DNA of 48,410 bases from a bacterium (GTDB lineage Bacteria; NPL-UPA2; JAUVJM01). The notes beneath the pieces are model-generated. The model had not been told where the DNA came from. It worked only from the letters and a program-made list of their open reading frames with translations, and did not search any database. The stretch is taken from positions 1-48,410 of the forward strand of contig JAUWGW010000010.1 of NCBI GenBank assembly GCA_030606215.1. Direction: 5' to 3'. Positions 19,525 to 35,712 of the stretch are shown piece after piece. A program made the translations under genes and the position numbers. Positions within the stretch are counted from its first letter, which is position 1; each line of letters begins with the position of its first letter.

Positions 19525-20439
19525 ATGGCTAAAGTAACGCTTGGTGTTAATGCTTGTTTTGCAGTTGGCAGATACCCTGAACCTGAAGAGTGGCTTGAAA
19601 TTGTTGGGAAAAAACTTGACCTCAGGTACTGTCAGTTCTTCTCAGACCTTATAGAGCCGCGTGTTGAGGAAACCATAAAGGAGAGAATGTGCAAAAGAAC
19701 TAAGGAAGCCGCTCAAAAATATAATGTGAAGATACACAGTAATTTCACGGGAACAGCGCCGCACTGGTGTCATACGCTGCTCCATCCCGATGAAGGAATG
19801 AGGAAAGACGCTCTCCGATGGTGGGAAAGTTTTTTCAGGATGACCCCAGCGCTTGGGGCAAATGCTGTGGGAAGTCTTCTCGGCTCATTTTCCGTGAGGG
19901 ATATAAAGAACCAGGATAGGAGGAAACTTCTAATCGACGAGGTTATAAAAAAATGGCATTATCTCTCAGAATTAGCTAAAAACATAGGGCTGGACTACAT
20001 AATGTTTGAACCAATGTCAGTTAAAAGGGAGATACCATCAACGATTGCTGAAACAGAGAAGTTTTATGAACGCCTTAATGAAGGTGCTTCTCTTCCTATT
20101 AAGATTTGTCTTGACATTGGACATGGAGCAAGATGTTCAGGAAAGGAAGAAGATAGAAATCCATATGCATGGATAGAACGATTCGCCGCACGGGCCCCCG
20201 TAATTCACATTCAACAGACAGATGGAGTAACAAGTAAACACTGGCCATTTACCACTGAACATAACAAGGTCGGGATAATTGATGCAGAGAAAGTCCTTTC
20301 TGCAATTTCCCGCTCGGGAGCGAAGGAAGTTCTCCTTGTTCTGGAAATATTCCACTCATTTTTTGAGCCGACGGAAGATAAGGTCATTGATGACCTCTTG
20401 ATAAGTGTGGAATACTGGAGAAAATACGTCAAGGAATAA
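19525..20439 (+). CDS. Sugar phosphate isomerase/epimerase-like TIM barrel protein
   Basis: A 304-residue protein of the xylose-isomerase-like/AP-endonuclease-2 TIM barrel superfamily. Likely metal-site segments at barrel strand ends are YIMFEPMS, CLDIGHGARCSG, VIHIQQTDG with HWPFT, and LLVLEIFHSFF; several Glu, Asp and His residues fit a divalent-metal isomerase. The phrase FGVN/LGVNACFAVGRYPEPEEW at the start resembles sugar epimerase relatives. Its place between two dehydrogenases and a rhamnulokinase-like kinase suggests ketose/aldose isomerisation or epimerisation before phosphorylation. The exact sugar is not deducible. Confidence 0.75.
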   Translation: MAKVTLGVNACFAVGRYPEPEEWLEIVGKKLDLRYCQFFSDLIEPRVEETIKERMCKRTKEAAQKYNVKIHSNFTGTAPHWCHTLLHPDEGMRKDALRWWESFFRMTPALGANAVGSLLGSFSVRDIKNQDRRKLLIDEVIKKWHYLSELAKNIGLDYIMFEPMSVKREIPSTIAETEKFYERLNEGASLPIKICLDIGHGARCSGKEEDRNPYAWIERFAARAPVIHIQQTDGVTSKHWPFTTEHNKVGIIDAEKVLSAISRSGAKEVLLVLEIFHSFFEPTEDKVIDDLLISVEYWRKYVKE

Positions 20440-20449
20440 AATTAAAGTA

Positions 20450-21973
20450 ATGGATGCGAAAAAAAATTATCTGGCTTTTGACCTGGGAGCAGAAAGTGGT
20501 CGGGCAATCTTAGGGAAATACGACGGGTCCAAATTAACTTTACATGAGATACATCGATTTTCTAATGGACCTGTGGTAATCTTCGGCCGGATGCACTGGG
20601 ATATACTTTACCTCTTTGAAGAAATAAAGAAAGGACTGGCTCTCACTGTTAAGGAAGGGAACCGGGAATTAGCAGGAATTGGCTGTGATAGCTGGGGGTG
20701 CGATTTTGGATTGGTCGGGAAAGATAATACTCTGCTTGGGTACCCTTATCACTATCGGGATAGCCGCACCGACGGCATGTTGGAGGCAGCATTTCAGAAA
20801 GTGAGCAGGGAGGAAATCTTCCAGCACACCGGAATTCAATTCATGAAAGTCAATACTCTCTATCAACTCCTCTCCATGGTAATTTCAAAATCTCCTCTCC
20901 TTCAAATATCCGAGTGTCTCCTGATGATAGCTGACCTTTTTCATTTCCTTCTTACAGGGGAGAAAGTAGGCGAGTTTACTCTGGCAACAACATCTCAGGC
21001 TTACGATTCTCGCGAAGGGAATTGGTCCACGCCGCTGCTAAAAAAACTTGGCATACCAACTAAAATTATGCCGGAGGTAGTTGCTCCCGGGACAGTAGTA
21101 GGAAACCTTCTTCCCGAAATTGTTCAAGAAGCAAATCTCAAATCACCTTCTCCGGTAATCGCTTCAGCTTGCCATGATACTGCCTCAGCAGTGGCAGCTA
21201 CTCCTACAGGGGGAGATAACTGGGCATACTTAAGTTCGGGAACCTGGTCTCTTTTAGGGATAGAACTTCCTAAACCAATCATAAATAAGAAAGTCCTGAA
21301 ATATAACTTCACCAATGAGGGAGGAGCAGCTGGAACATTCCGTTTCTTAAAGAACATCACAGGGCTATGGCTGGTACAGCAGTGTAAGAAGAGCTGGGAG
21401 AAAGAAGGAAAGCATCTTTCTTATAATGAGCTTATGCAGATGGCGGCTGAAGCAAAGTCCTCTTTATCCCTGATTGACCCTGATGATGAAGCTTTTCTCA
21501 ATCCACCGGATATGCCTGCTGAAATTCTCAAATTCTGCCAGAGGACTTCTCAATCGCTTCCGGAAGATAAAGGAAGCATCATCCGTTGCATTCTTGAGAG
21601 CTTAGCAGTGAAATATAGGATTGTCATTGACCAGTTGGAAGAACTTTCTGGCTGCCGCATAGAACGATTGCATTTAATCGGCGGAGGAGCGCAAAACCAT
21701 CTCCTCTGTCAGTTCACTGCAAATGCCACCGGTATCCCGGTTGTGGCTGGGCCTGTGGAAGCAACAGCTATAGGAAACATTTTGATGCAGGCTATCGCTC
21801 GAGGGGACATATCTTCCCTGGTGGAGGGGCGGGAAATAGTACGCCGCTCGTTCTCCATTATTACCTATCAGCCGAAAGATGCCTCTTACTGGGAGGAGCT
21901 CTATCACCGTTTCCAGAAAACTACATCCCAACCCGTCATTCTGAGAAGCAGAGCGACGAAGAATCTCTCGTAG
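20450..21973 (+). CDS. rhaB: Rhamnulokinase-like carbohydrate kinase (FGGY family)
   Basis: About 507 residues. The FGGY kinase fold starts with LAFDLGAESGRAILG (phosphate-binding loop) and has GCDSWGCDFGLV, PYHYRDSRTDG, SACHDTASAVAATP, YLSSGTWSLLG and LHLIGGGAQNHLLCQFTANATG. These fit rhamnulokinase (L-rhamnulose to L-rhamnulose 1-phosphate) better than xylulokinase, but no rhaA or rhaD is nearby and the substrate may be another ketose. The ATG at 20450 matches the family start; a TTG at 20405 overlaps the previous gene. The last residues, PVILRSRATKNLS, are the translation of a dispersed palindromic repeat, so the native C-terminus has been replaced or extended. Confidence 0.85.
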   Translation: MDAKKNYLAFDLGAESGRAILGKYDGSKLTLHEIHRFSNGPVVIFGRMHWDILYLFEEIKKGLALTVKEGNRELAGIGCDSWGCDFGLVGKDNTLLGYPYHYRDSRTDGMLEAAFQKVSREEIFQHTGIQFMKVNTLYQLLSMVISKSPLLQISECLLMIADLFHFLLTGEKVGEFTLATTSQAYDSREGNWSTPLLKKLGIPTKIMPEVVAPGTVVGNLLPEIVQEANLKSPSPVIASACHDTASAVAATPTGGDNWAYLSSGTWSLLGIELPKPIINKKVLKYNFTNEGGAAGTFRFLKNITGLWLVQQCKKSWEKEGKHLSYNELMQMAAEAKSSLSLIDPDDEAFLNPPDMPAEILKFCQRTSQSLPEDKGSIIRCILESLAVKYRIVIDQLEELSGCRIERLHLIGGGAQNHLLCQFTANATGIPVVAGPVEATAIGNILMQAIARGDISSLVEGREIVRRSFSIITYQPKDASYWEELYHRFQKTTSQPVILRSRATKNLS

Positions 21974-22023: not shown

Positions 22024-23286
22024 TCAGAAGCGGTAAATTAGTGAGATTTCAGCTACATGGGATTTGCTATCGTAATCCCCATCTGTAGGAAAGAGATTTT
22101 TACTGTCTCCCGCTTCTTTCTCTACCCCTTTAGAATACATATAGGCGCCGTTTATTTCCCAATCCCCAAAGGTATATCCTAAACCCACAGAGAGACGGTG
22201 GGTGGAGGTATCAAACATTAGCGGGTCTAATGTCTCCCCCGGAACAGGAGAAGGATCCCACATATAGCCGGCTCTTAAAACTAAATCAGAATTGAGCTTA
22301 TATTCCGTCCCCAGATGGAAGGAGTAGGTATCTTCCCAATTCCGCCCGGTCACAACTTCATCAACTACGGCAGGAGCAAACGGATTGGTTGGATTGAAAA
22401 GCGAAATCGGACTATCCAATTTTTGAATTAGAGTATCCATTGAGGACCATTTTGTCCAATCCACCTGCGCGGCAAAAAGCCACTTCTCCAATCCCTTGTA
22501 AGACGCTCCAATTGAAGCAGTTTGTGGAAAAGTAAATTCCATATCAAAATTTCTACTCTCCTGCGGGTAGACTCCGCTGGTTAAAGTGATTGTTCCATCG
22601 AAATCAACCTTCGTTTCACTTCTCCATACAAACCCAATACACCATTCCTCTGCTGGAGACCACAGGAAACCCAGGTTACTTGAATAGTCTTCCCCTTCCG
22701 CACTTAAATCCGTTTCGGCTAAATACGGCAAAGGGTCCGGCGGGAAATAGGATAATAAACCGACGCTTTTCGCATCAATACTTGCCCAATCCCATCCTAT
22801 CCCTGCGCCCGCAATGAAATCTTCATTAACTCGGTATGAGACTCCCGTATGCAGCTTGTTGAGGCTTATTTCTGATTCTATAGAATTGTATTTGTACACA
22901 CTTTCATCGCTCCACTCCTGTTTCAGTCCAAAGGGCATATAGAACCCTACCCCCCACGCTACAGTTTCACTCAGGGGAAGGGAAAACGCAAGATGAGGAA
23001 TGGGCTGCCATTCGGGTTGGTTATCCTCTGTTTGCCCTGTGGGTATTTCATAACTGGCGTAGCCCTTTACAAAAGTGCTTCCAATGATAATCTGCTTTCC
23101 TTCCACCTGAAGTAATCCAGCCGGGTTCCAGTATATAGCTAAAGGGTCATCAACAATCCCTACATAAGCCCCCGCCATACCTGTAGCCCTCGCCCCTATA
23201 GAAGGAGCCTGAAATGAAGCCGCTTCTGCCAATGTGGACAACAAAATCATCAATCCACCTAAAAAAATAAGATTTAACCGTTTCAT
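22024..23286 (-). CDS. FadL/OmpP1/TodX-family outer-membrane transport protein
   Basis: A 420-residue predicted beta-barrel of the FadL family, which takes up hydrophobic compounds (fatty acids, aromatic hydrocarbons). The signal peptide MKRLNLIFLGGLMILLSTLAEA is cut before ASFQAPSIGARATGMAGAYVG. That block and DDPLAIYWNPAGL are the diagnostic N-terminal hatch motifs. Repeated amphipathic strands follow, and the chain ends in ISLIYRF with a terminal phenylalanine. The start at 23286 has GGAGGGGAGAGG just upstream; a longer reading to 23331 overlaps the promoter. It is monocistronic, between a repeat and the HD-GYP regulator gene. Confidence 0.9.
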   Translation of the reverse strand: MKRLNLIFLGGLMILLSTLAEAASFQAPSIGARATGMAGAYVGIVDDPLAIYWNPAGLLQVEGKQIIIGSTFVKGYASYEIPTGQTEDNQPEWQPIPHLAFSLPLSETVAWGVGFYMPFGLKQEWSDESVYKYNSIESEISLNKLHTGVSYRVNEDFIAGAGIGWDWASIDAKSVGLLSYFPPDPLPYLAETDLSAEGEDYSSNLGFLWSPAEEWCIGFVWRSETKVDFDGTITLTSGVYPQESRNFDMEFTFPQTASIGASYKGLEKWLFAAQVDWTKWSSMDTLIQKLDSPISLFNPTNPFAPAVVDEVVTGRNWEDTYSFHLGTEYKLNSDLVLRAGYMWDPSPVPGETLDPLMFDTSTHRLSVGLGYTFGDWEINGAYMYSKGVEKEAGDSKNLFPTDGDYDSKSHVAEISLIYRF

Positions 23287-23311
23287 AACCTCTCCCCTCC
23301 TTTTTTCAACT

Positions 23312-23339
23312 ATTGTATCAAATCTCATCAAACAGTCAA
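23312..23339 (-). promoter_or_regulatory. Sigma-70 promoter of the FadL-type gene
   Basis: On the minus strand TTGACT (23334-23339) and TACAAT (23312-23317) lie 16 bp apart. The -35 box overlaps the last codons and stop of the upstream HD-GYP gene (ends 23336). Transcription would start near 23305, about 20 bases before the ATG. Confidence 0.75.
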
Positions 23340-24331
23340 GTTTTAAAAAGTTTTAATGCTACCTTCACAACTTCAGGGTCAAACTGGCTTCCCGCTCCAG
23401 CTTTTAATTGTTCCAAAGCTTTTTTCTCACCCATCCCAGGACGATAGGGTCTATCCGACCTCATAGCATGGTAGGCATCAGCAACTGCCAGAATCCGAGC
23501 CCATGAAGGTATCTCTCCATTTTCTTTCCCTTCAGGATAACCTTTCCCGTTAAAACGTTCGTGATGATAGAGAACCATTGGAATAAACTTCTCTAAAAAT
23601 TCTATGGGTTGAAGAATAGAAGCCCCTATTTCTGGATGCTTTTTAATCTCCTTCCATTCCTCCTTATTTAATTTCCCCTTCTTCCTTAAGATTCGTTCGC
23701 TAATGCCTATCTTACCTATATCATGTAAAGTGCAGACATAGCGGAATATCTCCTTGTCCTCAGATGATAAGTCTAAATTTAGCCCTTCAAGGAGAAGCAT
23801 AGCATACTCAGCTACCCCCTCAGAATGGCTGGAAGTATAAGTGTCTTTAGCAGTGACGGCTGCCATTAACGATTCCACAGTAGAAGAGTAGGCTTTCTGC
23901 AGCCTCTCGTCTAAATCTTTTTTTACTATTTCCAGATGCTTTAACTCTTTCTTCTCTTTTATTCTCTGCTTTCTTCTCTTCACTCCATTTCTCACCAGGT
24001 CCTCCAACTTATCTTTATCAAAGGGTTTATATATGTAATCAAATGCTCCGAACCGCATCGCTTCAACCGCTGTATCCAATGTTGCATGGCCGGTAACCAT
24101 AAGCACCTGAATATCCGGGTTTATTCCCTTAATTTTCTTCAACACGTCAATACCGTTCATCTTCGGCATCCTGATATCTAAGAGAGCCACATCAACACGA
24201 TGTTTCTTAACGAATTCTAAGGCATCTTTGCCGTCTGAGTAAATAAACAAATTGTATTTATCTTTAAGAATCATCCTGAAGGATTCTCTGACTCCTAATT
24301 CATCATCTACAACTAAAATATTCTCTTTCAT
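23336..24331 (-). CDS. Response regulator with HD-GYP domain (predicted c-di-GMP phosphodiesterase)
   Basis: 331 residues: a receiver domain (about 3-118; phosphoacceptor D52, K102), a helical linker (about 120-150) and an HD-GYP domain (about 150-330) with H203-D204 in LHDIGKIG, HHERFNGKGYPEG and GYP at 264-266. HD-GYP proteins of the RpfG type hydrolyse cyclic di-GMP. The key metal residues are kept, so activity is likely. It overlaps the preceding regulator gene by 4 bp and is the last gene of the ketosynthase/two-component operon. Confidence 0.92.
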   Translation of the reverse strand: MKENILVVDDELGVRESFRMILKDKYNLFIYSDGKDALEFVKKHRVDVALLDIRMPKMNGIDVLKKIKGINPDIQVLMVTGHATLDTAVEAMRFGAFDYIYKPFDKDKLEDLVRNGVKRRKQRIKEKKELKHLEIVKKDLDERLQKAYSSTVESLMAAVTAKDTYTSSHSEGVAEYAMLLLEGLNLDLSSEDKEIFRYVCTLHDIGKIGISERILRKKGKLNKEEWKEIKKHPEIGASILQPIEFLEKFIPMVLYHHERFNGKGYPEGKENGEIPSWARILAVADAYHAMRSDRPYRPGMGEKKALEQLKAGAGSQFDPEVVKVALKLFKT

Positions 24332-24927
24332 TTTCCACTCCTTACCATTTGCCTGTTATTTAACCCTTTTATACCTAATTTGTCCATCTTATACTTAAGG
24401 ATTCTACGGCTTGTCTTGAGCGATTTTGCCGCTTTAGTCTGGACACCATTAGTCGCTGCAAGAGCAGATTGAATTAGATTTCTCTCAAAACTTTCCACTG
24501 CTTCCTGAAGCGATAATCCTTTTTTAGAGGAGAGCTTAGCCTGAAAAGCCAAAGGTGTGCTAAGTTTCTGCGGCTGTAATGCTCTCTCCACCACTAACCT
24601 TATCTCCTCCACATCCAATGGTTTGGTTATATAACCATAAGCTCCCATTTTCATTGCTTCCACTGCCATCTTTATTGTCCGAGCAGAAGTTAATACAACT
24701 ACTCTTGAGGGACAATTCATCTTCTTAAGTTTTCTTAACACCTCAATTCCATCTATTTCGGGCATGATGATATCTAATATGATTAAATCAGGAGAAGCAT
24801 TCTTAGCAATTTCTAAAGCTTGATGCCCACTTTCGCACATTATAACCTTATATTCACCGTCTAATACTACACCAAATGCCTCCAGGACACTTAATTCATC
24901 ATCAACAACAAGTATAGTCTTCATCAT
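24328..24927 (-). CDS. Response regulator with Fis-type helix-turn-helix, no AAA+ domain
   Basis: 199 residues: a receiver domain (about 3-118; D52 in LIILDIIMP, K102) joined by a short linker to a Fis-like HTH (about 140-190; LQEAVESFERNLIQSALAAT, then TKAAKSLKTSRRILKYKMDKLG). It resembles NtrC-class regulators without the sigma-54-activating AAA+ module, like PrrA/RegA regulators, so it probably binds DNA directly. It begins 1 bp after the kinase stop and overlaps the HD-GYP gene. It is a candidate to bind the repeated sites upstream of the operon, but this is untested. Confidence 0.9.
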   Translation of the reverse strand: MMKTILVVDDELSVLEAFGVVLDGEYKVIMCESGHQALEIAKNASPDLIILDIIMPEIDGIEVLRKLKKMNCPSRVVVLTSARTIKMAVEAMKMGAYGYITKPLDVEEIRLVVERALQPQKLSTPLAFQAKLSSKKGLSLQEAVESFERNLIQSALAATNGVQTKAAKSLKTSRRILKYKMDKLGIKGLNNRQMVRSGK

Positions 24928-26988
24928 TTACTTTCCCGGTTTTATCTCAGGATATAACTTTGCATGAATACCTTTTTTTTTGGATTTTTCCGGGCTTAAA
25001 CTTACGGGTAAAAATACTTTAAAAGATGTCCCTTTTCCCACAGTAGAATCTACCTCGATTCTACCCTCGTGAGTTTCTATAATCTTCTGAGCTATAGGAA
25101 GTCCCAATCCTAAACCTTTAAGACGGACGCTAAAGAAGGGAGAAAACAACTTTTCCATATTTTTCAGGGGAATTCCTCTTCCAGTGTCAGAGAATTCAAT
25201 AACTACCTCTTCAGCTCCCTCTTTCTTAATCTTAGTAGATAGTGTGAGGGTTCCCCCTTCAGGCATAGCTTCAATACTGTTCCTTATTATATGAGAAAAA
25301 GCTTCTGCTAACTGGTCCCGATCTACAACTATGCGAGGAACGTTGGATGAATAATTTCTGTGCACCGGTATATTCTGACGAACCAATTCATCTTTAAAAT
25401 CTACTAAAACCTCGTCTGCAATTGAATTCAAATCGTCAGATTGAAGATTCAACAACAAAGGTTCAGCATATTTCTCCAATTTATCTACCAGTCCATTCAA
25501 CTTTTTGACATCTCCGCCCATGATTCGGTAAAAATTCTCTCTAAATTCTTTATCCTTGTATTTGTCCATGAATAGCTGAGTAAATGTCCTAATAGAAACT
25601 AATGGATTTCTAATCTCATGAGCTATGCCTTCGGTAAACTTCCTCCACAAGTTCTCTTCGTCTAACTTTCTGATTTTCTCATCTACAGCTCTCACCTTGG
25701 AAAGGTTGGTAAACACCATCACTCCACCGATAATCTCCTCATTTTCTTTCTTGAGAAGAGAAGTGGAAACTCCCAGGCGGGCATTTTCCCCGGGAAGGGC
25801 TGCTTCATAGCGATTGTAGGTTTTTTCTCCTTTTAAAGTTCTAAGCATAATATCCGCTATTATGGAACCGGCTCTTTGAATATCTTCGCCGATTATCTCT
25901 GCTTCCTCTAACCCCAGGATTTTCCTCCCGGCTTTATTTAGTGTGGTTATTTTCCCCTCATTGTCCACAGCAATGATCCCGGTGGGAATATTACCCATAA
26001 TTATCTGGTTGTGATTCCTCTGGAAACGAACTTCCTGATAAAGGAATGAATTGTAAATTGATACTGCCGCATAGTTAGCCATTGTGGTAAGGAATCTTAT
26101 ATCTTCATAAGTGAATTTATCTCCTGTGGTCTTCTTGCCTATGGAGATAATGGCAATCAAATCACCCCGGGTAGAGAGGGGAAGACAAAGATGAGCTCCT
26201 AACATATCTAACTGTCTTCTCATAAGAAGATGCTCCGGTAAATGCCCTTCCGCAGATAAATCTTCCCGTTTTAGTATTTGCCCTTCTCTACGAAGCCAAC
26301 CTGCTATTCCTTCTCCCCCCTTGAGTCTTATTTCCCTGACAATATCTTCCTGAAAACCTGTAGAGGCTTTTACTCTATACTCTGAACTTCTCCCATCCTT
26401 GAGGAGGATGGAAACTTTATTAACTTCAAATATCTCTGCTACCGCAGTTACGACTGAATCAAGCAGCTTGGAAGAGTCAAAGACATAGGTAAGGGCTTTG
26501 GAAAATTTTCGAATAGCTTCCTGATAATAGTGAGGAGCTTGAGGGGTAAATTTTTCCTCTCCGGATTTTTCAAAAGGAACCCGGGGCTCCGCCACATTAA
26601 CTTTGTCTGCCCGCAAACGGAGTGCTTTTAGTTCCTCCAGCAGTTTGCTCTTTTCTTGAGCTTTCTTTAAAATATTGAGCAGGTCTTTCTTCTGAAAAGG
26701 TTTATTAACTACCTCATAGATTCCCTCATATGAGGCATTTTGTTTCAACGCGGATAGCGCTACAATAACTGCTTCGTCCTTAACCTCTCTTATCTCTTCT
26801 ACCAGAGTTGAAATATCCGTATCCGGAATAGGCGTGTCAAGTATCACCAAATCTAATGGATTCTCTCTTAAGATAGTTATAGTCTCCTTTTTTCCCCCAG
26901 CCATCATGACTAAAAACTCATCCTTTAAAATCATTTTCAAAGATTCCCGAATTCCCTTATCCTGACTTACAATTAATACAGTATCCAT
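24928..26988 (-). CDS. Hybrid sensor: receiver-GAF-PAS histidine kinase
   Basis: A 686-residue soluble multidomain kinase: N-terminal receiver (about 3-110), linker, GAF domain (about 168-315), PAS domain (about 325-440), HisKA dimerisation domain with H457 in IAHEIRNPLVSI, and an HATPase domain (about 555-675) with IRNSIEAM, DTGRGIP and LGLGLP. The receiver keeps D51 and K96, but the acidic pair usually at the N-terminal loop reads SQD, so one acidic residue is missing and metal binding may be weakened. It has no transmembrane segment. It lies 2 bp after the upstream kinase gene. It could receive phosphate from the membrane kinase (phosphorelay) or act as an independent cytosolic sensor. Confidence 0.9.
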   Translation of the reverse strand: MDTVLIVSQDKGIRESLKMILKDEFLVMMAGGKKETITILRENPLDLVILDTPIPDTDISTLVEEIREVKDEAVIVALSALKQNASYEGIYEVVNKPFQKKDLLNILKKAQEKSKLLEELKALRLRADKVNVAEPRVPFEKSGEEKFTPQAPHYYQEAIRKFSKALTYVFDSSKLLDSVVTAVAEIFEVNKVSILLKDGRSSEYRVKASTGFQEDIVREIRLKGGEGIAGWLRREGQILKREDLSAEGHLPEHLLMRRQLDMLGAHLCLPLSTRGDLIAIISIGKKTTGDKFTYEDIRFLTTMANYAAVSIYNSFLYQEVRFQRNHNQIIMGNIPTGIIAVDNEGKITTLNKAGRKILGLEEAEIIGEDIQRAGSIIADIMLRTLKGEKTYNRYEAALPGENARLGVSTSLLKKENEEIIGGVMVFTNLSKVRAVDEKIRKLDEENLWRKFTEGIAHEIRNPLVSIRTFTQLFMDKYKDKEFRENFYRIMGGDVKKLNGLVDKLEKYAEPLLLNLQSDDLNSIADEVLVDFKDELVRQNIPVHRNYSSNVPRIVVDRDQLAEAFSHIIRNSIEAMPEGGTLTLSTKIKKEGAEEVVIEFSDTGRGIPLKNMEKLFSPFFSVRLKGLGLGLPIAQKIIETHEGRIEVDSTVGKGTSFKVFLPVSLSPEKSKKKGIHAKLYPEIKPGK

Positions 26989-26990
26989 TT

Positions 26991-29516
26991 CTATCCTCTA
27001 CCATATTGTCTGAAGGAACCTGCTTCTTTTACTTCCTCTTTATGAATCGGAAGACGCAGAGAAAAACAGGTCCCTTTTCCTGCCCTGGTATCCTTCACGC
27101 CAATAGTTCCACCATGGTCAGCCATAATTCGGTGAACCACAGCTAATCCCAATCCTGTTCCGTTCTCTCTGGTAGAAAAGAAAGGGTCAAATATCTTGGG
27201 CAGAATCTCTGAAGGTATCCCTCTCCCTGTATCTTTTATTTCTATAACCAATTCCTCTCCTTCAGAAATTAATCCCTCCTTATCCTCATGGTCGTAGAAG
27301 GTGTTTATCACAAAAGTGCCCTCGCCATTCATGCTCTCTATGCCGTTCAGAAAAAGATTTAAGAATACCTGTTTTAATCTATCCTCATCAGCATAAATCT
27401 CAGGAGCATCTTTAATGTAATTCTTAACTATCTTAATAGCTTTCTTCTCTAATTTAGTAGACAGAAACACCAGCGTGGCATCTATCATTTTGTGGATATT
27501 AGTAGACTGATAATTGACAGGGCTTGGGTGAGCGAGGTCAAGCAGCTGTTCTACAAGCCTGTTGATTCTTTCAACTTCTTCCGCCGCTACGCCGGAAAAC
27601 TCTTTTCTAAACTCTTCATCACCAAATTTCTCAGGAAGAAGTTGAAGAAAGGTATTGATAGCTACCAGAGGGTTTTTTATCTCGTGAGCCATTCCAGCGG
27701 CTAATGTTCCTAAAGAAGCAAGTTTCTCTGCCTGATAAAGTTCCTGCTCCAGACGCTTTATTTCAGTAAGGTCAACTAATACAATAACTGCACCGGTAAC
27801 TTTCCCATCGGCATCTTTCAACGGGGCAGTGCTTACAGCTAAAGGGACTGATGTTCCCCCTTCTCTCAAATAGTCTACCTTTTGCTGCGCATAACCTCTC
27901 CCCCTTTTCAAAGTATCTTCTACTAATCTGCCCATAACACCTTTTGCTACATGTTTGAAGGATTTGCCTATAACCCGAGAGGGAAAACCGGTAAGTTTTT
28001 GAACCTTCTGGTTGAAGACAACTATTTTCCCTTTCTTGTCTACGGTAATAACCCCACCAGTAAGGTTCTTCAAGATATTCTCTTGATATATCTTCGCCTC
28101 CTCCATCCGGGTGTATAACTTCGCGTTGTCAATAGCTACCGAAGCCTGATTTGCCAAGGTTAGAAATAGGTCCATATCTTCCTGAGTAAAAATCTCCCCG
28201 GACTGTTTACCGCTCAGGAAAAGAACACCTGTCAAATTGTTCTCCCGGAGGATAGGAATAGCAATTTCCGCACCTACTTTTTGTAAAGTCTCATCCATTT
28301 CTCTTACTGCTTCCGTGGAACGCAGCCGCTCTAAATCTTCCCTGATAACTACCTCTCTCCTTCTTTTTACCCACTTAGTTAAGCTACTCTCTTTTTTCAA
28401 AACTACTCTTCTCTGCACTTCCGTTAATCCAATTTCAGAACCGACATAATATCGGTCTTCCTCCCCCAGCCATATGGACGCTTTCTCAACTCCTATGGAT
28501 TCGGTAATGTTCTTCAATATCATATCCAATAGCTGGGATAAGGACAAAACCCTGGCCAATGCCCTACCGGTTTCTCTTAAAACTTTCTGGTATTCATATT
28601 TCTTTCTATAAAATACACTGTCTACAAATTTCTGGACTTTTTCCCTTAAAGGTAAAAAGACAAAAGCAATAATCAAAGCCGCGAAAACAGCGGGGAAGAA
28701 GGTCTGGTAACCTACTATTCCTCTGAAGAATCTTTCTGCTAAAAGGACAACGATAATATAGAGAGCAGTAGTGAAACCTGTAAGAAGAGCATATATTGCT
28801 GTCTTTCTTACTACTACAGTAATATCAAAAAGGTGGTATTTAACAATTGAATAAGCAACAAAGCCTACAATGATTACTGTAAATGTTGGACCAACAGCAA
28901 TTAGTCGTGAGAATCCCAATGCCGGGAGAACTGCACCAGGAATCACCCCCAAGGAGGTACCGATAAACATCCCGGTAAAAAGAATTTTTAACTGGAGTGC
29001 CTCAACACCTATCCTGGTAGCTTTCCATTTCTTGAACAAATAGTACAAACTTAGACTTACAGTGCCCGCTTCGTAAGCTGCGAACAAAGGATAAAGCAAG
29101 CCAACTTTAGGGCGGAAAACTCCATTTTGCAAATAGACATCTCTCTGGATAAGACTCGTAAAAGACAGGAAAAACAGAAGCCCACCCGTAATAATAACAC
29201 CGTAATTCAAAGCAGGAAAACCATAATGCAGCTTGTTACGTCCTGGTTGGGGCTTAGGAAAAACTATGGAAAAGTATAAAAAAGCTATAGGGAGAAGAGC
29301 ACCTATGGCAAAACACCAATGACCAAAGAATATAACCCATCTTATATCCTGGAAAACAGTTACCAATAAATTAAACAAACTCCAGACAGAAAGGCCATAC
29401 ACAAATAATGAAAGGGACCGATTGACTGTTTTCTTAGGGCCTTTATACAGCACATATGTCCCGATGACCAGATTTGTCAGGGCAGCAACTATTAGACCTA
29501 ATGCTTTTAAACTCAC
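26991..29516 (-). CDS. Membrane histidine kinase with 7TM-like N-terminus, GAF and PAS domains
   Basis: An 841-residue kinase. About eight hydrophobic segments fill residues 1-295 (histidine-kinase 7TM-type/PrsK-like input). These are followed by a GAF domain (about 325-467), a PAS domain (about 475-590), HisKA with H611 in GMAHEIKNPLVAI, and an HATPase domain (about 700-825) with FLNGIESM, DTGRGIPS and GTGLGLAVV. The domain set resembles PrsK (PEP-CTERM-associated sensor) kinases, of interest because a PEP-CTERM protein is encoded at 742, though the resemblance is general. It overlaps the ketosynthase gene by 4 bp. Confidence 0.9.
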   Translation of the reverse strand: MSLKALGLIVAALTNLVIGTYVLYKGPKKTVNRSLSLFVYGLSVWSLFNLLVTVFQDIRWVIFFGHWCFAIGALLPIAFLYFSIVFPKPQPGRNKLHYGFPALNYGVIITGGLLFFLSFTSLIQRDVYLQNGVFRPKVGLLYPLFAAYEAGTVSLSLYYLFKKWKATRIGVEALQLKILFTGMFIGTSLGVIPGAVLPALGFSRLIAVGPTFTVIIVGFVAYSIVKYHLFDITVVVRKTAIYALLTGFTTALYIIVVLLAERFFRGIVGYQTFFPAVFAALIIAFVFLPLREKVQKFVDSVFYRKKYEYQKVLRETGRALARVLSLSQLLDMILKNITESIGVEKASIWLGEEDRYYVGSEIGLTEVQRRVVLKKESSLTKWVKRRREVVIREDLERLRSTEAVREMDETLQKVGAEIAIPILRENNLTGVLFLSGKQSGEIFTQEDMDLFLTLANQASVAIDNAKLYTRMEEAKIYQENILKNLTGGVITVDKKGKIVVFNQKVQKLTGFPSRVIGKSFKHVAKGVMGRLVEDTLKRGRGYAQQKVDYLREGGTSVPLAVSTAPLKDADGKVTGAVIVLVDLTEIKRLEQELYQAEKLASLGTLAAGMAHEIKNPLVAINTFLQLLPEKFGDEEFRKEFSGVAAEEVERINRLVEQLLDLAHPSPVNYQSTNIHKMIDATLVFLSTKLEKKAIKIVKNYIKDAPEIYADEDRLKQVFLNLFLNGIESMNGEGTFVINTFYDHEDKEGLISEGEELVIEIKDTGRGIPSEILPKIFDPFFSTRENGTGLGLAVVHRIMADHGGTIGVKDTRAGKGTCFSLRLPIHKEEVKEAGSFRQYGRG

Positions 29517-30766
29517 TCTAAAACCCCGTTAAACTCTGAAATAATTAAACTGGTATTGCTCCCTCCAAATCCATAAGAGTTGATAAGCACAGCCCCCACA
29601 TTGTTTCTTCTTGCTTCATTAGGCACATAGTCTAAATCGCACTCAGGGTCAGGAAATTCATAATTAATGGTTGGAGGAATTATTCCGTTTTTCATAGTCA
29701 TTAAAGAAGCAATTAATTGCATGGGACCGGCAGAAGCTAAGGGATTTCCTGTCATCGATTTAATTGAACTTACAGGGATTTTATACGCGTAATCGCCAAA
29801 GACCTCTTTAATAGCAAATGTTTCTGCTCTGTCCCTTATGACATCTGAAGGGGCGTGAGCGCAGATATAACCCACATCTACAGGTTCAAGGAATGCTTGC
29901 GCTAAGACTTTTTTCATCTGTTCAACAAATCCGCTCCCCTTCTCATCAGTTTCAAATAGATTAGAAGCCTCTGTACTATTACTATAGCCTGTTATCTCCC
30001 CATATATGAACGCATTTCTGCCCAGAGCGTGTCCCATCTCTTCCAAGATTACAATACCTGCCCCTTCACTTACTATACCCCCATCACGCTCCGCGTCAAA
30101 CGGTCTGCTCGCTTTGGCAGGGTCTCCATTCCGTGTAGAGACAATTCCCGCCGCACATAAACTCCCCAATGTCAAGGGGGTCACAGAGCCATCGGCACCT
30201 CCGGTAATTGCAGTGTCTATTTTGCCTGCCTGCACATCCCAATATGCGGCGCCGATTGCATCTAACCCGCAAGTGCATGCTGAAGAAATAGTGGTAACCT
30301 GGCCTTTACAACTCAACTCAATAGAAATTTCGGTAGCCGCAGAATTATGACAATAAGCCGCCGAACCAAACGGACTCATTTTAGGAATTCCTTTCTCCTG
30401 GAGCTTGATATGTTCTCTTTCAAAAACATCCGTCCCTCCCGTAACCGAGCCTATATATATTCCTGCCCTGTTATCGTTGAGGTGCTCCTCTTCTATTTTA
30501 GCATCCAGAACAGCCATCTTTGCTGAAGCCACTGCGAAGTGGGCAAATCTTCCGGTCCTCCTCACGCTTTTACTATCCATATACCCAGCAGGATTGAAAT
30601 CTTTAATCTCACCGGCAATTCGGGATGGAAAGGAAGAAGCATCAAATTGAGTTATCTTGCCAATACCAGACCTTCCATGAATAAGAGCATCCCAAAAGGC
30701 ATCCTTACCTATTCCGTTAGGAGCTACAATCCCCATTCCTGTAACTACTACGCGCCTCTTATCCAT
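29513..30766 (-). CDS. FabF-like beta-ketoacyl-ACP synthase with Cys-His-Asn triad
   Basis: A 417-residue thiolase-fold condensing enzyme of the KAS I/II type, which would extend an acyl chain on ACP. The nucleophile is C164 (SSACTCG). The first histidine is H304, but in AHAPSD instead of the usual HGTxT. The second histidine of KS enzymes (KSMTGH) is replaced by N341 (KSMTGN). The C-terminal block PPTINYEFPDPECDLDYVPNEARR and FGFGGSN are normal. It may be a condensing enzyme with a FabH-like Cys-His-Asn set or one with altered chemistry. It is the first gene of an operon of signalling proteins. No SD precedes the ATG, which sits in an inverted repeat. Confidence 0.88.
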   Translation of the reverse strand: MDKRRVVVTGMGIVAPNGIGKDAFWDALIHGRSGIGKITQFDASSFPSRIAGEIKDFNPAGYMDSKSVRRTGRFAHFAVASAKMAVLDAKIEEEHLNDNRAGIYIGSVTGGTDVFEREHIKLQEKGIPKMSPFGSAAYCHNSAATEISIELSCKGQVTTISSACTCGLDAIGAAYWDVQAGKIDTAITGGADGSVTPLTLGSLCAAGIVSTRNGDPAKASRPFDAERDGGIVSEGAGIVILEEMGHALGRNAFIYGEITGYSNSTEASNLFETDEKGSGFVEQMKKVLAQAFLEPVDVGYICAHAPSDVIRDRAETFAIKEVFGDYAYKIPVSSIKSMTGNPLASAGPMQLIASLMTMKNGIIPPTINYEFPDPECDLDYVPNEARRNNVGAVLINSYGFGGSNTSLIISEFNGVLE

Positions 30767-30769
30767 TTT

Positions 30770-30783
30770 TGTACAATATTGTC
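30770..30783 (-). promoter_or_regulatory. Repeated site 1 (GACAATATTGTACA), at the ketosynthase start
   Basis: One of three copies of GACAAWATTGNACA on the minus strand. It ends 4 bases before the ATG, where an SD would be expected, so a bound protein (or RNA structure) could block translation or transcription. Confidence 0.5.
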
Positions 30784-30807
30784 CGCATTAGAAAAACCTC
30801 ACATAAA

Positions 30808-30835
30808 ATTTAACATCTCTGTTCAATATTGTCAA
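30808..30835 (-). promoter_or_regulatory. Predicted promoter of the ketosynthase operon with overlapping repeated site 2
   Basis: On the minus strand the -35 box is TTGACA (30830-30835) and the -10 is TTAAAT (30808-30813, 16-bp spacer). The second copy of the repeated site, GACAATATTGAACA (30820-30833), overlaps the -35 box, as expected of a repressor operator. Transcription would begin about 35-40 bases before the start codon. Confidence 0.55.
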
Positions 30836-30904: not shown

Positions 30905-30932
30905 ATTCAATACCGTTGTTCAATTTTGTCAA
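30905..30932 (-). promoter_or_regulatory. Second, distal promoter-like site with repeated site 3
   Basis: On the minus strand TTGACA (30927-30932) and TTGAAT (30905-30910, 16-bp spacer) form a weaker promoter. The third copy, GACAAAATTGAACA (30917-30930), again overlaps the -35 box. The arrangement repeats that of site 2, 97 bp away. Confidence 0.45.
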
Positions 30933-30967: not shown

Positions 30968-32608
30968 TCAGACAGAATTGGAGAGTACATTCTTGTTAAT
31001 CTCTTTAATCTGTGTCTCTATACCTTTAAAATTCCCGGTTAAGAAGTTCAAACGATTCTGGTCTCTATACTGTCGGGGTGAGAGGTGGACATATTTAGCT
31101 AAGAGAGCCATCTCATCAGAAACAGTAGTAGTAATCCCCAATTCTTCTACTTTTTTCATAAATTGTTCTAACTCCTGCGCATACTTCTTGAATCTTTCCC
31201 CATTAACTTTATAAGGAAAAGGTTTCCAGAACCGAGGAGGAAACATAAACTTGACCTTATAGTTCATAGTCTTTTGAAGAAAGGTATTTTTATTGAATTG
31301 AAATCCAAAACGCTCAGGGTTCTTAAACCATTCTGTCCCTGGAACAATTAGAGGAAACAGTATAGGAGCAGAGTCGGGCTTCACTTCTGACAATAGATTG
31401 AGAGTTTCCTGTCGTGTCTCTTCCGTTTCTCCAGGCGCGGGAAATATCATACTGCCTACAGTAAACAGCCCTGCTTCCTTCGCATAAAGGATTGCTTTCT
31501 TGATCTGTTCCACCTTTACACCTTTGTTTATACCTCTATCAAGTATCCTCTGGCTGCCAGACTCTATACCTAAGAATATACCAAAACAACCTGAAGATTT
31601 CAAAAGCTTGAAGATTTCCAAACTTACCCCTCGCACATGCCCGAAAGTAGTATATTCAACCCTTAGCCCTCTCTCTAATATTTCCCTGGCAATCTCTTCC
31701 ATAAGTTTCAAGGGGGTGTTTGAACCGGCATACCTAAAAACGCCAATTCCATACTTCTCCTTTATTGCAACCATTTCATTAACCACCCTCTGCGCACTCT
31801 TGACCCTCAGCCTTCCACTTTTCAGCGGATGTATGCAGAAATAGCAGGAATTATTACATCCCCTGCTTTCATCTAAGACAATCATCTTTATCTTCTCGTT
31901 TCCCCTCATTGCCGGATATATCTCATCATCATAGATGGGATAGGGGAGAGCATCTAAATCTTTAATCCTTTTTACAGGAGTTGTGACTATTCTACCATCC
32001 TTTTTAAAAATCAGATTGGGTATCTCTTGAAGCTTCCTTTTCCATCCAATATACTCTGCTAACATTACAATTGTTTCTTCACCTTCTCCATAAGCCAACG
32101 CGTTAAAATCTCTCGTCGCTGTATAAATATGCTCTCTGAAGATATCCACATGAGGACCTCCGGCGAAAATGGGAAGCTCCGGATGTACTTTCTTTAATTC
32201 GTGAGCAATTCTTAAAGAGCCGGTAAAACCATCTCCATTCCACAATTTAAACCCCACAAAATCTACTTTTTCCTTTTCAACCATCCTTGCAATCTCTCTC
32301 CCTATCAAAGAAGCTTCTCTATTCTGATAATGACTCAGCCTCTTCTCTGTTAACCATAATCTTGAAATCTCCTTGAAGGATAAAGTCTCTCCATTCATAA
32401 ACCTTTCCACTATCGGAGTGATTGATTGAGACAGGTGAGAAGGATAGAGGCGTTTGATAATCTTCGGAGTATTAAAATCTAAGATTTTTGTGGTGTGACC
32501 TGCGCTTATAAGCGCAGAAGCTAAATTAGCCAGACCATTATCAGGAAGAAAACTGTTAGGACCAAGTGGATACCCGGCATAGGTAATTAAAAGACTCTTA
32601 GTCGCCAT
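30968..32608 (-). CDS. B12-binding-domain radical SAM protein (1)
   Basis: 546 residues. The N-terminal half (about 1-190) looks like a cobalamin-binding domain of the BchE/radical-SAM type (YGEGEETI near 173-180; the DxHxxG histidine motif is not obvious). It is followed by the radical SAM barrel with the cluster motif C251-x3-C255-x2-C258 in RGCNNSCYFCIHP, and IGSMIFPAPGETEETRQ-like sequence typical of the family. The C-terminal 100 residues are basic and helical. Such enzymes methylate or rearrange unreactive carbons in lipids, tetrapyrroles and natural products. It is directly followed by a second member (the stop of that gene is adjacent to this ATG). The substrate is unknown. Confidence 0.85.
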   Translation of the reverse strand: MATKSLLITYAGYPLGPNSFLPDNGLANLASALISAGHTTKILDFNTPKIIKRLYPSHLSQSITPIVERFMNGETLSFKEISRLWLTEKRLSHYQNREASLIGREIARMVEKEKVDFVGFKLWNGDGFTGSLRIAHELKKVHPELPIFAGGPHVDIFREHIYTATRDFNALAYGEGEETIVMLAEYIGWKRKLQEIPNLIFKKDGRIVTTPVKRIKDLDALPYPIYDDEIYPAMRGNEKIKMIVLDESRGCNNSCYFCIHPLKSGRLRVKSAQRVVNEMVAIKEKYGIGVFRYAGSNTPLKLMEEIAREILERGLRVEYTTFGHVRGVSLEIFKLLKSSGCFGIFLGIESGSQRILDRGINKGVKVEQIKKAILYAKEAGLFTVGSMIFPAPGETEETRQETLNLLSEVKPDSAPILFPLIVPGTEWFKNPERFGFQFNKNTFLQKTMNYKVKFMFPPRFWKPFPYKVNGERFKKYAQELEQFMKKVEELGITTTVSDEMALLAKYVHLSPRQYRDQNRLNFLTGNFKGIETQIKEINKNVLSNSV

Positions 32609-33982
32609 TTAAAATCTTTCTGCATTTCTCACTAAACTATTAAGTCCTTTCAAAAATCTTAACTTTAACCTGAGCTGAGAAACAGAAAAGGCTGCTGTCT
32701 TCTTTTTAGGACTTTTCAAAAACCGACGGAAAGAATAAGCTTTCTTATAGAGATTAACAAAACATCTGTAGAATTCTTTCTTTGGTAACTTAGTGGGCTG
32801 TACAACATGAGAGAAATCAAAAAGTTCATAATTGCTACTTAACCCTCCCTTCATTTCTTCATAAATATCAGTCCCTGGAAATGGAGTAAAGATAGTGAAC
32901 ACAGGTTGAGTTAATCTTCTCTTTTCTATATATTCACTCAATTCCTCAAAATCTTTTTTATCAAAATCAGGGTCTATTACGAAATAAGCCGCCGCTTCTA
33001 CATCATTCTCTTCTAATATTCTTATTGCCTCTTCATTCTGCCGGATATTTGTCTTTTTATTCCATTTTTTAAGCTCTTTATCCCTGAAGGACTCAAAACC
33101 TATAAGTATTAGTTCCAATCCTATCTCTTTCCATTTCTTAATTAAGTCTGGGTGTTTAGCTACTGTATCTGAACGCGCATAAATCTTATAGATTTTCTCA
33201 AACCTTTTTTCTTTAATCAGCTCATATAGCTTATACGCTCTTGTAACATCTGCTAAGGTATTATCGTCAACAAAGTCAATGTACTTTTCCGGAATAGTCT
33301 CTAATTCCTTCACTACCGATTCTGCACTCCGAACTCTATATTTACCCCGATTCACCTTCCACATAGAACAGAAGCTGCATCGGAAAGGACAACCTTTGGA
33401 AGTATAAAGTGAGGTTATCGGACGCCAGGAGGCACGGAAGTATTTGCTTCTATATTTTTCTATTAGCTCCCTTTTAGGAAAAGGTAAATCATCTAATTTT
33501 AAAAGAGGGCGTTCATCGGTAATGAGAAATCTTCCATCCTTGCGGTAGGCAATCCCTCTCACATTGGTTATATCTTCACCCTGCTGTAACTTGTCTGTTA
33601 ATTCTTTAAAGGTCTCCTCGCCTTCACCTATAACTACTGTATCCACAAAATCTTCAAAAAAATCTTCAGGCTTTAACGTGGCGTGGTGTCCACCAATCAC
33701 AGTAATAATATCAGGATTGAACTTTTTTACTTCTCTCAGCAACTCTTTTGCAACATAAACTCCCACAGCGTAGCAGGTAGTCCCTACAATATCCGGTTTA
33801 AACCTCTCCAGCTCTCTTTGCAGGTTATGGTCTATCCGCATATCTAATATCTTAACTTCATGGTCTGGTAACGTAGACGCCACACATTCTAAGGCTAAAG
33901 GCTCAGCTAACCCTATTACTCCAATAGCTATATCATGAGGATTTGGTGGAGGCTCAACAAGTAATATCTTCATAACTTTCAC
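32609..33982 (-). CDS. B12-binding-domain radical SAM protein (2)
   Basis: 457 residues starting MKVMKILLVEPPPNP (GTG at 33982, or ATG at 33973 giving the family-like MKILLVEPP). It has a cobalamin-binding N-terminal domain (about 5-150, with VIGGHHATLKPEDFF and VVIGEGEETF) and a radical SAM domain with C198-x3-C202-x2-C205 (KGCPFRCSFCSMW), followed by VNRGKYRVRSAESVV. This is the pattern of the BchE/HpnR/HpnJ group, which act on bacteriochlorophyll or hopanoids, but also of many uncharacterised proteins. It is the upstream partner of the other radical SAM gene, probably in one operon. Confidence 0.85.
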   Translation of the reverse strand: MKVMKILLVEPPPNPHDIAIGVIGLAEPLALECVASTLPDHEVKILDMRIDHNLQRELERFKPDIVGTTCYAVGVYVAKELLREVKKFNPDIITVIGGHHATLKPEDFFEDFVDTVVIGEGEETFKELTDKLQQGEDITNVRGIAYRKDGRFLITDERPLLKLDDLPFPKRELIEKYRSKYFRASWRPITSLYTSKGCPFRCSFCSMWKVNRGKYRVRSAESVVKELETIPEKYIDFVDDNTLADVTRAYKLYELIKEKRFEKIYKIYARSDTVAKHPDLIKKWKEIGLELILIGFESFRDKELKKWNKKTNIRQNEEAIRILEENDVEAAAYFVIDPDFDKKDFEELSEYIEKRRLTQPVFTIFTPFPGTDIYEEMKGGLSSNYELFDFSHVVQPTKLPKKEFYRCFVNLYKKAYSFRRFLKSPKKKTAAFSVSQLRLKLRFLKGLNSLVRNAERF

Positions 33983-34101
33983 GATTATAGCCCCAAGGAA
34001 AGTCTCTTGTCAACAGGAATGGAATGGAATTTTCTGCTTGATTTCCGGTAGAAAGCATGATAGCCTTAAAGTAGGAAATCTTACCAATGGAGGTGATAAA
34101 G

Positions 34102-34374
34102 ATGGTTGTAAGAGTCAGTAGTAAACATCAGGTTACTATCCCCAAGGATATTGCAGAAGGCTTTCATTTGAAAAAAGGAGATGTCCTGGAAGTGGAGAGA
34201 AAAGGAAATAAAATTATTATGATTCCAAAAGAGGTTATTCTTGAGGATAAGTACCATCAAGAGGATTTAGAAGCAACGGAAAAGGTTTTGTCAAAAGGAT
34301 TACCTGAAGAAGAAATGGCTTTCAAATCGGGAACAGCAATGTTGAGACATTTTAAGAAAAGGACTAAGAAGTGA
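34102..34374 (+). CDS. AbrB/MazE-type antitoxin (SpoVT-AbrB domain)
   Basis: 90 residues. The N-terminal swapped-hairpin SpoVT/AbrB DNA-binding domain is clear: VRVSSKHQVTIPKDIAEGFHLKKGDVLEVERKGNKIIMIPK. An acidic tail probably binds the toxin. A perfect SD (GGAGGTGAT) precedes the ATG at 34102; an in-frame ATG at 34087 overlaps the SD and is rejected. The gene overlaps the RelE-like toxin gene by GTGA, the usual arrangement of type II toxin-antitoxin pairs, which are autoregulated. Confidence 0.88.
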   Translation: MVVRVSSKHQVTIPKDIAEGFHLKKGDVLEVERKGNKIIMIPKEVILEDKYHQEDLEATEKVLSKGLPEEEMAFKSGTAMLRHFKKRTKK

Positions 34375-34661
34375 AGTATATTGTTCTTCACTCGTTTGGC
34401 AAGAAATTTGATTCCTACCGCGAACAAGGGCAAGAACTTATCGTTTCCACTCTGGAAAAGATTAAGAAGTACCTGGAGACCAACCAGGCTCCCTATGGCT
34501 TGAGGATCAAAAGGCTTTCCAAAAAGATATATGAGGCCAGAATAAATATTCACCTTCGTATAGCTTACTTTCGTGAGAAGGGCATAGTGAAATTTTTCTG
34601 TTTGGGAAATCACGATGATATTAATAGGTATCTTAGAACCTTAAAGCGGGACCTCAAATAA
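34371..34661 (+). CDS. RelE/ParE-family toxin
   Basis: 96 residues with the RelE-fold pattern: an N-terminal helical pair (FGKKFDSYREQGQELIVSTLEKIKKYLE), then GLRIKRLSKKIYEARINIHLRIAYF and FCLGNHDDINRYLRTLKRD. Basic residues in the C-terminal strands fit ribosome-dependent mRNA cleavage or gyrase inhibition, but the mode cannot be told. The start is a GTG overlapping the antitoxin stop. Confidence 0.82.
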   Translation: MKYIVLHSFGKKFDSYREQGQELIVSTLEKIKKYLETNQAPYGLRIKRLSKKIYEARINIHLRIAYFREKGIVKFFCLGNHDDINRYLRTLKRDLK

Positions 34662-34796: not shown

Positions 34797-35042
34797 ATGG
34801 AAAAAGATGATAGTCTTTTATACAAAAAATATATATTTTGGTCAGTAAAACCGGAGAAGGTTGACCTTACTGACCCATGGACGAGAAAGTGGTATCTGAC
34901 ACAGGTTCTCACCCATGGGAAGATGGAAGATATTATTCGTTTGGACGTAGAAGAGATAGAAAAAAGCATGGATGAACTAAACCTGCGTAGTGAAATTGAT
35001 AGATTATGGAGACACTATTTTGCAGAACGAAAAAGCATCTAA
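34797..35042 (+). CDS. DUF6922-like small protein, putative antitoxin partner of AbiEii
   Basis: 81 residues, starting at ATG 34797 behind AAGGTGAT (a GTG at 34788 overlaps the SD). Aromatic residues FWSV, the WTRKWYLTQVLTHGKMEDI segment and the terminal LWRHYFAE match small proteins (DUF6922 type) encoded directly before AbiEii-like nucleotidyltransferases. The gene overlaps the following gene, which suggests a two-component toxin-antitoxin or defence pair. The family call is from memory of the pattern. Confidence 0.65.
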   Translation: MEKDDSLLYKKYIFWSVKPEKVDLTDPWTRKWYLTQVLTHGKMEDIIRLDVEEIEKSMDELNLRSEIDRLWRHYFAERKSI

Positions 35043-35712
35043 AATTTTAACCCTTTTTCAAAGAGAATCTCTTAAGATTTTCTTCTCTCTACCCGACGCT
35101 GACAATTTCTACCTTACCGGCGGTACAGCTCTGTCAGCCTTTTATCTTCAACACAGGCTTTCCGAAGATTTGGATATTTTTGTCCCTGAGGAGAGACTGT
35201 TAAGGTACACAGGCAACAGATTTGCCAAAGAGTTGAAAACAGAAGGTTTTGAGGTTGAGGTTGTAAGAACATTCCTTTCATTCATGGAGTTAATTATAAA
35301 AAAAGAGAAAGAAAGTGTGCTGGTACATTTGGCTGTTGATTCTCCTTTCAGGTTTGAAAAGCCTACGAAAGTAGACATGGGCATCAACGTTGACTCTTTT
35401 CTTGATATAGCAACTAATAAACTTCTGGCATTGTTCGGCAGATTTGAGCCCCGAGACTTTATTGATATTTTCTTTATTGTGAAAGAGAACCATATGGATT
35501 TGGAGTATCTTATCAGTAAAGGTAAGGGAAAAGACCCGGGGCTTGATGAATACTACCTGGCCATTGCTTTTGAAAAAGCTAACGATCTCCCGGACAGCAT
35601 AGAAAAGATACCAGTAAACATGTTAAAGGACATCGATGTAAAGGAGATGAAATCGTTTTTCTCAAAGTATGCCATTCAGCTTTTAGACAAAGGCAGAAAA
35701 GGGTTTACATAG
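35020..35712 (+). CDS. AbiEii/MenT-type nucleotidyltransferase (toxin)
   Basis: About 230 residues. The nucleotidyltransferase motif is YLTGGTALSAFYLQHRLSEDLDIF (GG at 34-35, D50 and D52). The downstream ATNKLLALFGRFEPRDFIDIFFI segment is typical of AbiEii toxins, with the conserved lysine and RD-D. AbiEii proteins act as toxins of type IV systems and in phage abortive infection; the related mycobacterial MenT3 adds nucleotides to tRNA 3' ends. The start is unclear: TTG at 35020 has GGAG 8 bp upstream, and GTG at 34990 adds 10 residues. The gene ends 14 bp before a tRNA-Leu. Confidence 0.82.
   Translation: MQNEKASKILTLFQRESLKIFFSLPDADNFYLTGGTALSAFYLQHRLSEDLDIFVPEERLLRYTGNRFAKELKTEGFEVEVVRTFLSFMELIIKKEKESVLVHLAVDSPFRFEKPTKVDMGINVDSFLDIATNKLLALFGRFEPRDFIDIFFIVKENHMDLEYLISKGKGKDPGLDEYYLAIAFEKANDLPDSIEKIPVNMLKDIDVKEMKSFFSKYAIQLLDKGRKGFT

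Follow-up and report, generated by a model that had tools for sequence, protein, structure and literature searches.

A conserved cassette, in which a gene for a FabF-type ketosynthase (KS) is coupled to a gene for a 7TM sensor histidine kinase, is found in at least five bacterial phyla, and its sequence features suggest that it encodes a self-sufficient system for signalling between cells (or of a cell to itself) with an acyl-derived lipid signal, a reading that is considered reasonably probable. The case for such lipid making and sensing is built on the constant set of KS, B12-binding radical SAM enzyme (rSAM2), channel and 7TM kinase, together with the altered active site and diversified pocket of the KS and the paired variability of synthase and sensor. 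The window, i.e. the whole stretch of 48,410 nucleotides that was analysed, is an entire contig (G000:C29) of a 1.52 Mb draft genome with a completeness of 93%.

The five ORFs reported in the first-pass annotation as one signalling operon were all recovered on the minus strand (Table 1), and every domain assigned to their products was confirmed by Pfam. The KS gene overlaps the 7TM kinase gene by 4 bp, the second (hybrid) kinase gene follows after 2 bp, the REC-Fis gene adjoins it with a gap of 0 bp, and the REC-Fis and REC-HD-GYP genes again overlap by 4 bp. The extent of the unit had been drawn too narrowly, as it also takes in a FadL gene 3' of the HD-GYP gene and rSAM2 5' of the KS gene. 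The FadL ORF opens with TTG 4 bp past the HD-GYP stop codon; a probable ATG at 23286 comes after a signal-peptide-like start, and the gap would be about 50 bp if this ATG is the true start.

Table 1. Predicted features of the KS operon and its upstream region in the window
Feature	Position	Strand	Basis or remark
FadL/OmpP1-family outer-membrane lipid channel, sixth operon gene	22024-23331	-	Toluene_X PF03349, E=4.7e-52
REC-HD-GYP response regulator, c-di-GMP phosphodiesterase type	23336-24331	-	PF00072, PF13487; HD-GYP motifs intact
REC-HTH_8 (Fis type) response regulator	24328-24927	-	PF00072, PF02954
Second histidine kinase, REC-GAF-PAS-HisKA-HATPase, soluble	24928-26988	-	Pfam
7TM sensor histidine kinase, HisKA_7TM (aa 8-233)-GAF-PAS-HisKA-HATPase	26991-29516	-	PF16927, E=6e-9, and others
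FabF-type ketosynthase, Cys164-His304-Asn341	29513-30766	-	Pfam, active-site alignment
Operator-like palindrome, copy 1 (GACAATATTGTACA)	30770-30783	-	Immediately 5' of KS ATG
Sigma-70-like promoter of KS operon, TTGACA-17-TAAATT	30807-30835	-	Consensus match only
Operator-like palindrome, copy 2 (GACAATATTGAACA)	30820-30833	-	Overlaps -35 box
Operator-like palindrome, copy 3 (GACAAAATTGAACA)	30917-30930	-	Farthest upstream of the three
rSAM2, B12-binding radical SAM enzyme	30968-32608	-	PF02310, PF04055; conserved KS partner
rSAM1, second B12/radical SAM enzyme (HpnR/BchE-like)	32609-33982	-	Upstream of rSAM2

Several other genes in the surroundings were noted. A rhamnulokinase-like FGGY kinase gene (20405-21973), the last of a long plus-strand gene run, is convergent with the FadL gene. 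Near the start of the rSAM1 gene lie an ORF for a MazE-type antitoxin and a downstream ORF of 96 aa (34087-34661), a possible toxin-antitoxin module, and after these a gene for an AbiEii-type nucleotidyltransferase (34990-35712), possibly part of another. Further on, a leucine-type biosynthesis operon (36829-41156) encodes HMGL/LeuA, aconitase-family LeuC and isopropylmalate dehydrogenase-like proteins, with a small ORF (39614-40111) at the position expected for LeuD.

The window KS has the complete ketosynthase fold (N-terminal domain PF00109, E=2e-47; C-terminal domain PF02801, E=6e-25) and scores 454.6 bits against the NCBIfam fabF model, below the equivalog cut-off of 493.75. For the alignment, residue numbers follow FabF, anchored at Cys163. 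In place of the Cys-His-His triad of FabF (C163-H303-H340), the window enzyme has Cys-His-Asn, with H340 replaced by Asn; the first-pass annotation described the KS domains correctly and overlooked both this missing second catalytic His and the three palindromes upstream of the gene. Across an alignment of 46 family members, Cys163 (46/46), His303 (45/46), Lys335 (44 Lys, 2 Arg) and an Asp (46/46) are kept, while position 340 is Gln in 38, Asn in four, Ile in one and His in only three, i.e. the second catalytic His is missing in 43 of the 46. Conversely, all 25 housekeeping FabFs retain His340 (Fisher p=3e-16 for the contrast). Since the three members with His340 (L102, L224 and L225) are also kinase-linked, kinase linkage does not need the loss of this residue. 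Likewise, acyl-pocket positions that are near-fixed in housekeeping FabF (I108, F/L133, I/V134, P135, I138 and F202) carry small and variable residues in the family. Retention of all catalytic residues except His340 rules out a decayed copy and suggests, from the sequence, an active enzyme. Nor is the KS a second housekeeping FabF, because the same genome has a separate Cys-His-His FabF on contig C26, beside an ORF of ACP size (82 aa). In short, the family shares with housekeeping FabF (KAS II) the fold, Cys163, His303 and Lys335, but differs from it in the lost His340, the remodelled acyl pocket and the clustering with kinase genes. A different KS context was seen in Omnitrophota and Nitrospirota, where KS genes occur in arrays of two or three (L085:10001-14442 and L088:5341-7568), one of the encoded KSs lacking the nucleophilic Cys (STGF), similar to chain-length-factor partners.

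The family was collected with a profile built from 15 kinase-linked KSs, to which most members score about 550 bits and up and housekeeping FabFs up to about 545, the two ranges overlapping at the kinase-linked L102_9 with 542. Members occur in the phyla of G000 (the window's genome), G514, G050 (Armatimonadota), G047 (Rokubacteria) and G032, with further ones in G023, G035, G563, G760 and a Chloroflexi record; this conservation in at least five phyla rules out chance neighbours. In a maximum-likelihood tree all 46 family KSs fell on one side of a branch with an SH-aLRT of 98, obtained with a quick method and with the H340 column included. The adjacency of KS and signalling genes, for which the first-pass annotation had proposed a check in relatives, held firmly: the 7TM kinase gene directly follows the KS gene in 43 of 46 members, compared with none of about 25 housekeeping FabFs. 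As a control for circularity, 31 members picked by KS sequence alone (L168, L200-L217, L219-L225, L259-L263) were considered separately, and 29 of these have the 7TM kinase directly 3' of the KS. In the three exceptions the kinase lies three genes on (L105), the KS is at the contig end (L168), or regulators take the place of the kinase (L261). L105 and L261, both from the phylum of the window, have the family KS in another arrangement with regulators 5' of it, and in L105 two B12 radical SAM genes and a Phenol_MetA_deg barrel gene are inserted between the KS and the 7TM kinase.

The link between the KS and the radical SAM genes, which the first-pass annotation had implied for both, was borne out by co-occurrence for rSAM2 and not for rSAM1. 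Among 291 genomes of Armatimonadota, 29 have both rSAM2 and the KS, one the KS only, four rSAM2 only and 257 neither (Fisher p=2e-34). In L062, L101, L260 and L262, as in the window, the rSAM2 gene lies directly 5' of the KS; in Armatimonadota it is convergent and behind the cassette, and in G314, G315 and G316 it is on a contig other than that of the KS. rSAM1 is excluded from the conserved core, being missing from that place in L062 and L260. In the window the rSAM1-rSAM2 genes have their own sigma-70-like promoter at 34013-33984, as judged from a 12/12 consensus match only.

The 161 bp 5' of the KS contain three exact copies of the palindrome GACAAWATTGWACA (core ACAAWATTGT). With two mismatches allowed, five matches were found in the window compared with 1.85 expected, a number reached by 7 of 100 shuffles and not exceptional. 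Over the whole genome (1.5 Mb) the motif GACAAWATTGWNCA has four matches, three upstream of the KS and the fourth within a coding frame, and none at any other promoter of this genome. Both genome matches in the relative G043 are likewise upstream of the KS, and similar palindromes precede the KS in L062, L259, L260 and G778. This genome-wide placement suggests autoregulation of the KS operon, with the Fis-type HTH as the likely binder of the palindrome.

The first kinase of the window belongs to the HisKA_7TM type, as PF16927 scores 36.5 bits against a cut-off of 28.6 and a kinase core is present, and the REC-HD-GYP protein contains the motifs HDIGK and HHERFNGKGYP. The phosphorelay originally proposed did not find support, no HPt domain being present among the Pfam matches of the operon. 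The window encodes the Fis HTH on a REC-HTH_8 protein of its own, whereas in L062, L259 and L260 it forms the C-terminal end of the second kinase; the second kinases of these three loci (in L062 at 8112-10370) also have an N-terminal REC in the same polypeptide and could bind DNA directly. The output also differs between clades, with REC-HD-GYP in that of the window and in G023/G563, and REC-kinase-REC in place of HD-GYP in Armatimonadota, so that c-di-GMP, as put forward earlier, does not hold as the general output. For the window itself a c-di-GMP output is possible, as GGDEF proteins are encoded in its genome.

The sixth operon product carries the FadL/OmpP1 domain, with FadL and TodX as relatives in the PDB, and its gene is in the same place in L062 and L260. 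At several family members no FadL was found near the KS. In Armatimonadota a secreted protein without a Pfam match is encoded directly 5' of the KS (21 aligned); its structure, predicted from 7 sequences (pLDDT 75.5, pTM 0.73), is a barrel for which FadL is the best PDB match (TM-score about 0.6) and FadL-family entries hold most top ranks. A FadL fold is accordingly the best match for the modelled barrel. Other envelope proteins encoded at the cassette are an MMPL-family transporter 3' of the kinases in L103 and the Phenol_MetA_deg barrel in L105. A role of FadL in signalling has a precedent in the sensing of long-chain AHLs, which it helps (PMC5977203).

The proposal that the operon both makes and senses a signal was further studied via the variation between close relatives. 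G514 and G650 are from one genus, and the 11-kb background around their fabF is mostly 89-97% identical. Per comparison window, nucleotide identity is 92-100% for the genes of the second kinase and the HD-GYP protein, and mostly 88-100%, with a lowest value of 80%, for the part of the first kinase from GAF to kinase. Conversely, the 7TM domain is only 47-56% identical in nucleotides (32-40% aa), and the KS 77% aa compared with 94% aa for the housekeeping FabF. The divergence is contiguous from the KS into the 7TM domain, and this pair by itself could represent one recombination tract. G778, from the same genus, shows a KS identity of 72-73% compared with 87-88% for FabF, and its radical SAM protein is 33% identical to that of G650. 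Of 57 codon windows compared in a second, independent pair, L071/L072, the five with the lowest identity are those of KS 61-180 and 7TM 1-180; third-position identity in the diverged segments is 47-62%, compared with about 80% elsewhere, and the C-terminus of the KS, located between the two segments, is near background (87-93% nt). The control pairs L101/L262 and L069/L220 displayed even similarity throughout.

Across 39 members, the distance in the KS pocket correlated with that in the 7TM domain in a partial Mantel test, which is lenient with related sequences (r=0.37, p=0.0005; pocket segment KS 81-160, picked after the G514/G650 pair had been seen), and did not correlate with that in the GAF domain (r=-0.04, p=0.70). 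Sliding windows gave peaks in the KS at 81-140 and 241-300 and in the kinase at residues 1-180. No correlation between KS and 7TM was found in sister-pair ratios (Spearman rho 0.11, p=0.65). The 7TM domain of the window is 62% identical to that of L259 and 40% to that of L260, but its KS pocket is 70% identical to that of L260 and 58% to that of L259, and together with the sister pairs this rules out a simple, clean one-to-one matching of pocket and 7TM types. In combination, the make-and-sense proposal is supported by the way in which the KS and the 7TM domain co-diversify, whereas the expectation of clean type matching and of a sister-pair correlation failed.

From these features the identity of the product, its binding and transport, phosphotransfer and the regulator-operator contact are inferred as follows. 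The KS would be acylated at its Cys by acyl-ACP and, because the second His is missing, would probably not carry out ordinary malonyl-decarboxylating elongation; instead, it would condense two acyl chains head to head or pass the acyl group to an acceptor. rSAM2 may then alter the product, e.g. by methylation. The lipid would pass the outer membrane via the FadL-type channel and bind the first kinase at its 7TM domain; both kinases would act on receiver proteins, in the window the HD-GYP phosphodiesterase (c-di-GMP) and the Fis-type regulator, the latter probably exerting feedback through the three operator copies at the KS promoter.

The main rival is envelope-lipid homeostasis, in which KS and rSAM2 would produce or modify a structural lipid of the membrane, exogenous lipid would be imported by FadL, the 7TM kinase would read the state of the membrane to set the amount, and nothing would leave the cell. 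All enzymes and the channel are lipid-related, homeostasis would also use a KS, a FadL and a membrane kinase, and both the MMPL-family transporter of L103 and the operator, which suggests feedback on the KS operon, would fit. Still, a KS pocket and a sensor domain that are hypervariable together while kinase and output stay fixed are unexpected for a structural lipid sensor, and the swap of rSAM2 inside one genus likewise argues against this explanation, which appears unlikely. The KS could also be a pseudo-synthase, i.e. a cytosolic acyl-ACP sensor and partner of the kinases, whose Cys acylation would report fatty-acid flux and switch the kinase by contact. The loss of the second His in 43 of 46 members, the 4-bp overlap of the KS and kinase genes and an operon without a dedicated ACP are in line with this. 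However, the other catalytic residues are almost invariant and the pocket is diversified, the B12 radical SAM enzyme that is always alongside implies a pathway, and the part of the kinase with which the pocket co-varies is the membrane domain rather than the cytosolic GAF, all of which makes the pseudo-synthase very improbable. Least probable of all is a secondary-metabolite or lipid locus placed for regulatory convenience beside kinases that sense something unrelated, with the 7TM/KS variability as a recombination hot spot: B12 radical SAM and KS enzymes are frequent in natural-product loci and the G514/G650 divergence runs unbroken from KS to 7TM domain, but the gene set is minimal (KS, rSAM2, channel) over at least five phyla and the variable segments of L071/L072 are split by near-background sequence.

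The signalling reading finds its closest parallels in two known systems; on the best reading of the comparison, the cassette would work like Rpf/DSF or ComQXPA and belong to neither. In Rpf/DSF (RpfF-RpfC-RpfG), as here, an acyl-ACP-using enzyme of the fatty-acid pathway (the signal synthase), a membrane sensor kinase (a hybrid) and an HD-GYP response regulator are encoded together, and FadL has been proposed for uptake (PMC4504480). The signal there is a cis-2-unsaturated fatty acid and the synthase a crotonase, whereas here the synthase is a FabF-type KS with rSAM2, and no RpfF-type crotonase is present among the Pfam matches of the operon. RpfC is a hybrid with 5 TM, a C-terminal REC and an HPt domain, in contrast to the HisKA_7TM kinase (7TM-GAF-PAS) and the soluble kinase with N-terminal REC found here. 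The cassette also adds a second kinase and the Fis regulator and has the channel inside the operon; the REC-HD-GYP output is shared by the window and is not conserved in Armatimonadota.

With regard to ComQXPA, synthase and membrane sensor are both polymorphic among close relatives, the N-terminal part of ComP varying together with comQ. Within one species, strains whose gyrA is clonal fall into clusters between which comQ has 65-70% nt identity (PMC4408185). The same pattern of a polymorphic synthase and N-terminal sensor with a conserved kinase core is present in G514/G650 and L071/L072, i.e. in few close pairs and with unclean matching in the window clade. Unlike in the cassette with its lipid enzymes, the ComQXPA signal is an isoprenylated peptide, ComX, of Gram-positives; the operon contains no ComQ isoprenyl transferase, and no ComX-type peptide gene is evident, for which its 0-4 bp gaps leave no room. 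A third comparison is photopyrone signalling by PpyS/PluR, in which a LuxR solo serves as the sensor in Photorhabdus. PpyS is a ketosynthase that joins acyl chains head to head into the signal photopyrone without normal elongation, and its triad of C129, H281 and N310 is of the same Cys-His-Asn type as that of the window KS; KSs with acylating activity are listed in the same publication (PMC4578411). PpyS is of the FabH/OleA type, but the cassette KS is of the FabF type and is encoded in a kinase operon.

No description of the cassette was found in the open-access literature, including on the topic of KS and histidine kinase, and the system appears not to have been described before. It may represent a new class of quorum sensing, with a lipid pheromone made by a FabF-derived KS and a B12 radical SAM enzyme, a FadL-type channel, a 7TM kinase and synthase-receptor alleles acting as pherotypes, across at least five phyla whose members are mostly uncultured; this wider proposal is a serious possibility that falls somewhat short of being probable. 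The paired variability offers a direct test, as near-identical operons differ in the 7TM domain and the synthase. If the proposal is true, the FabF family would have given rise to signal synthases, and lipid signalling that has a synthase, a channel and a receptor of its own would exist in phyla that are nearly devoid of described cell-cell signalling.
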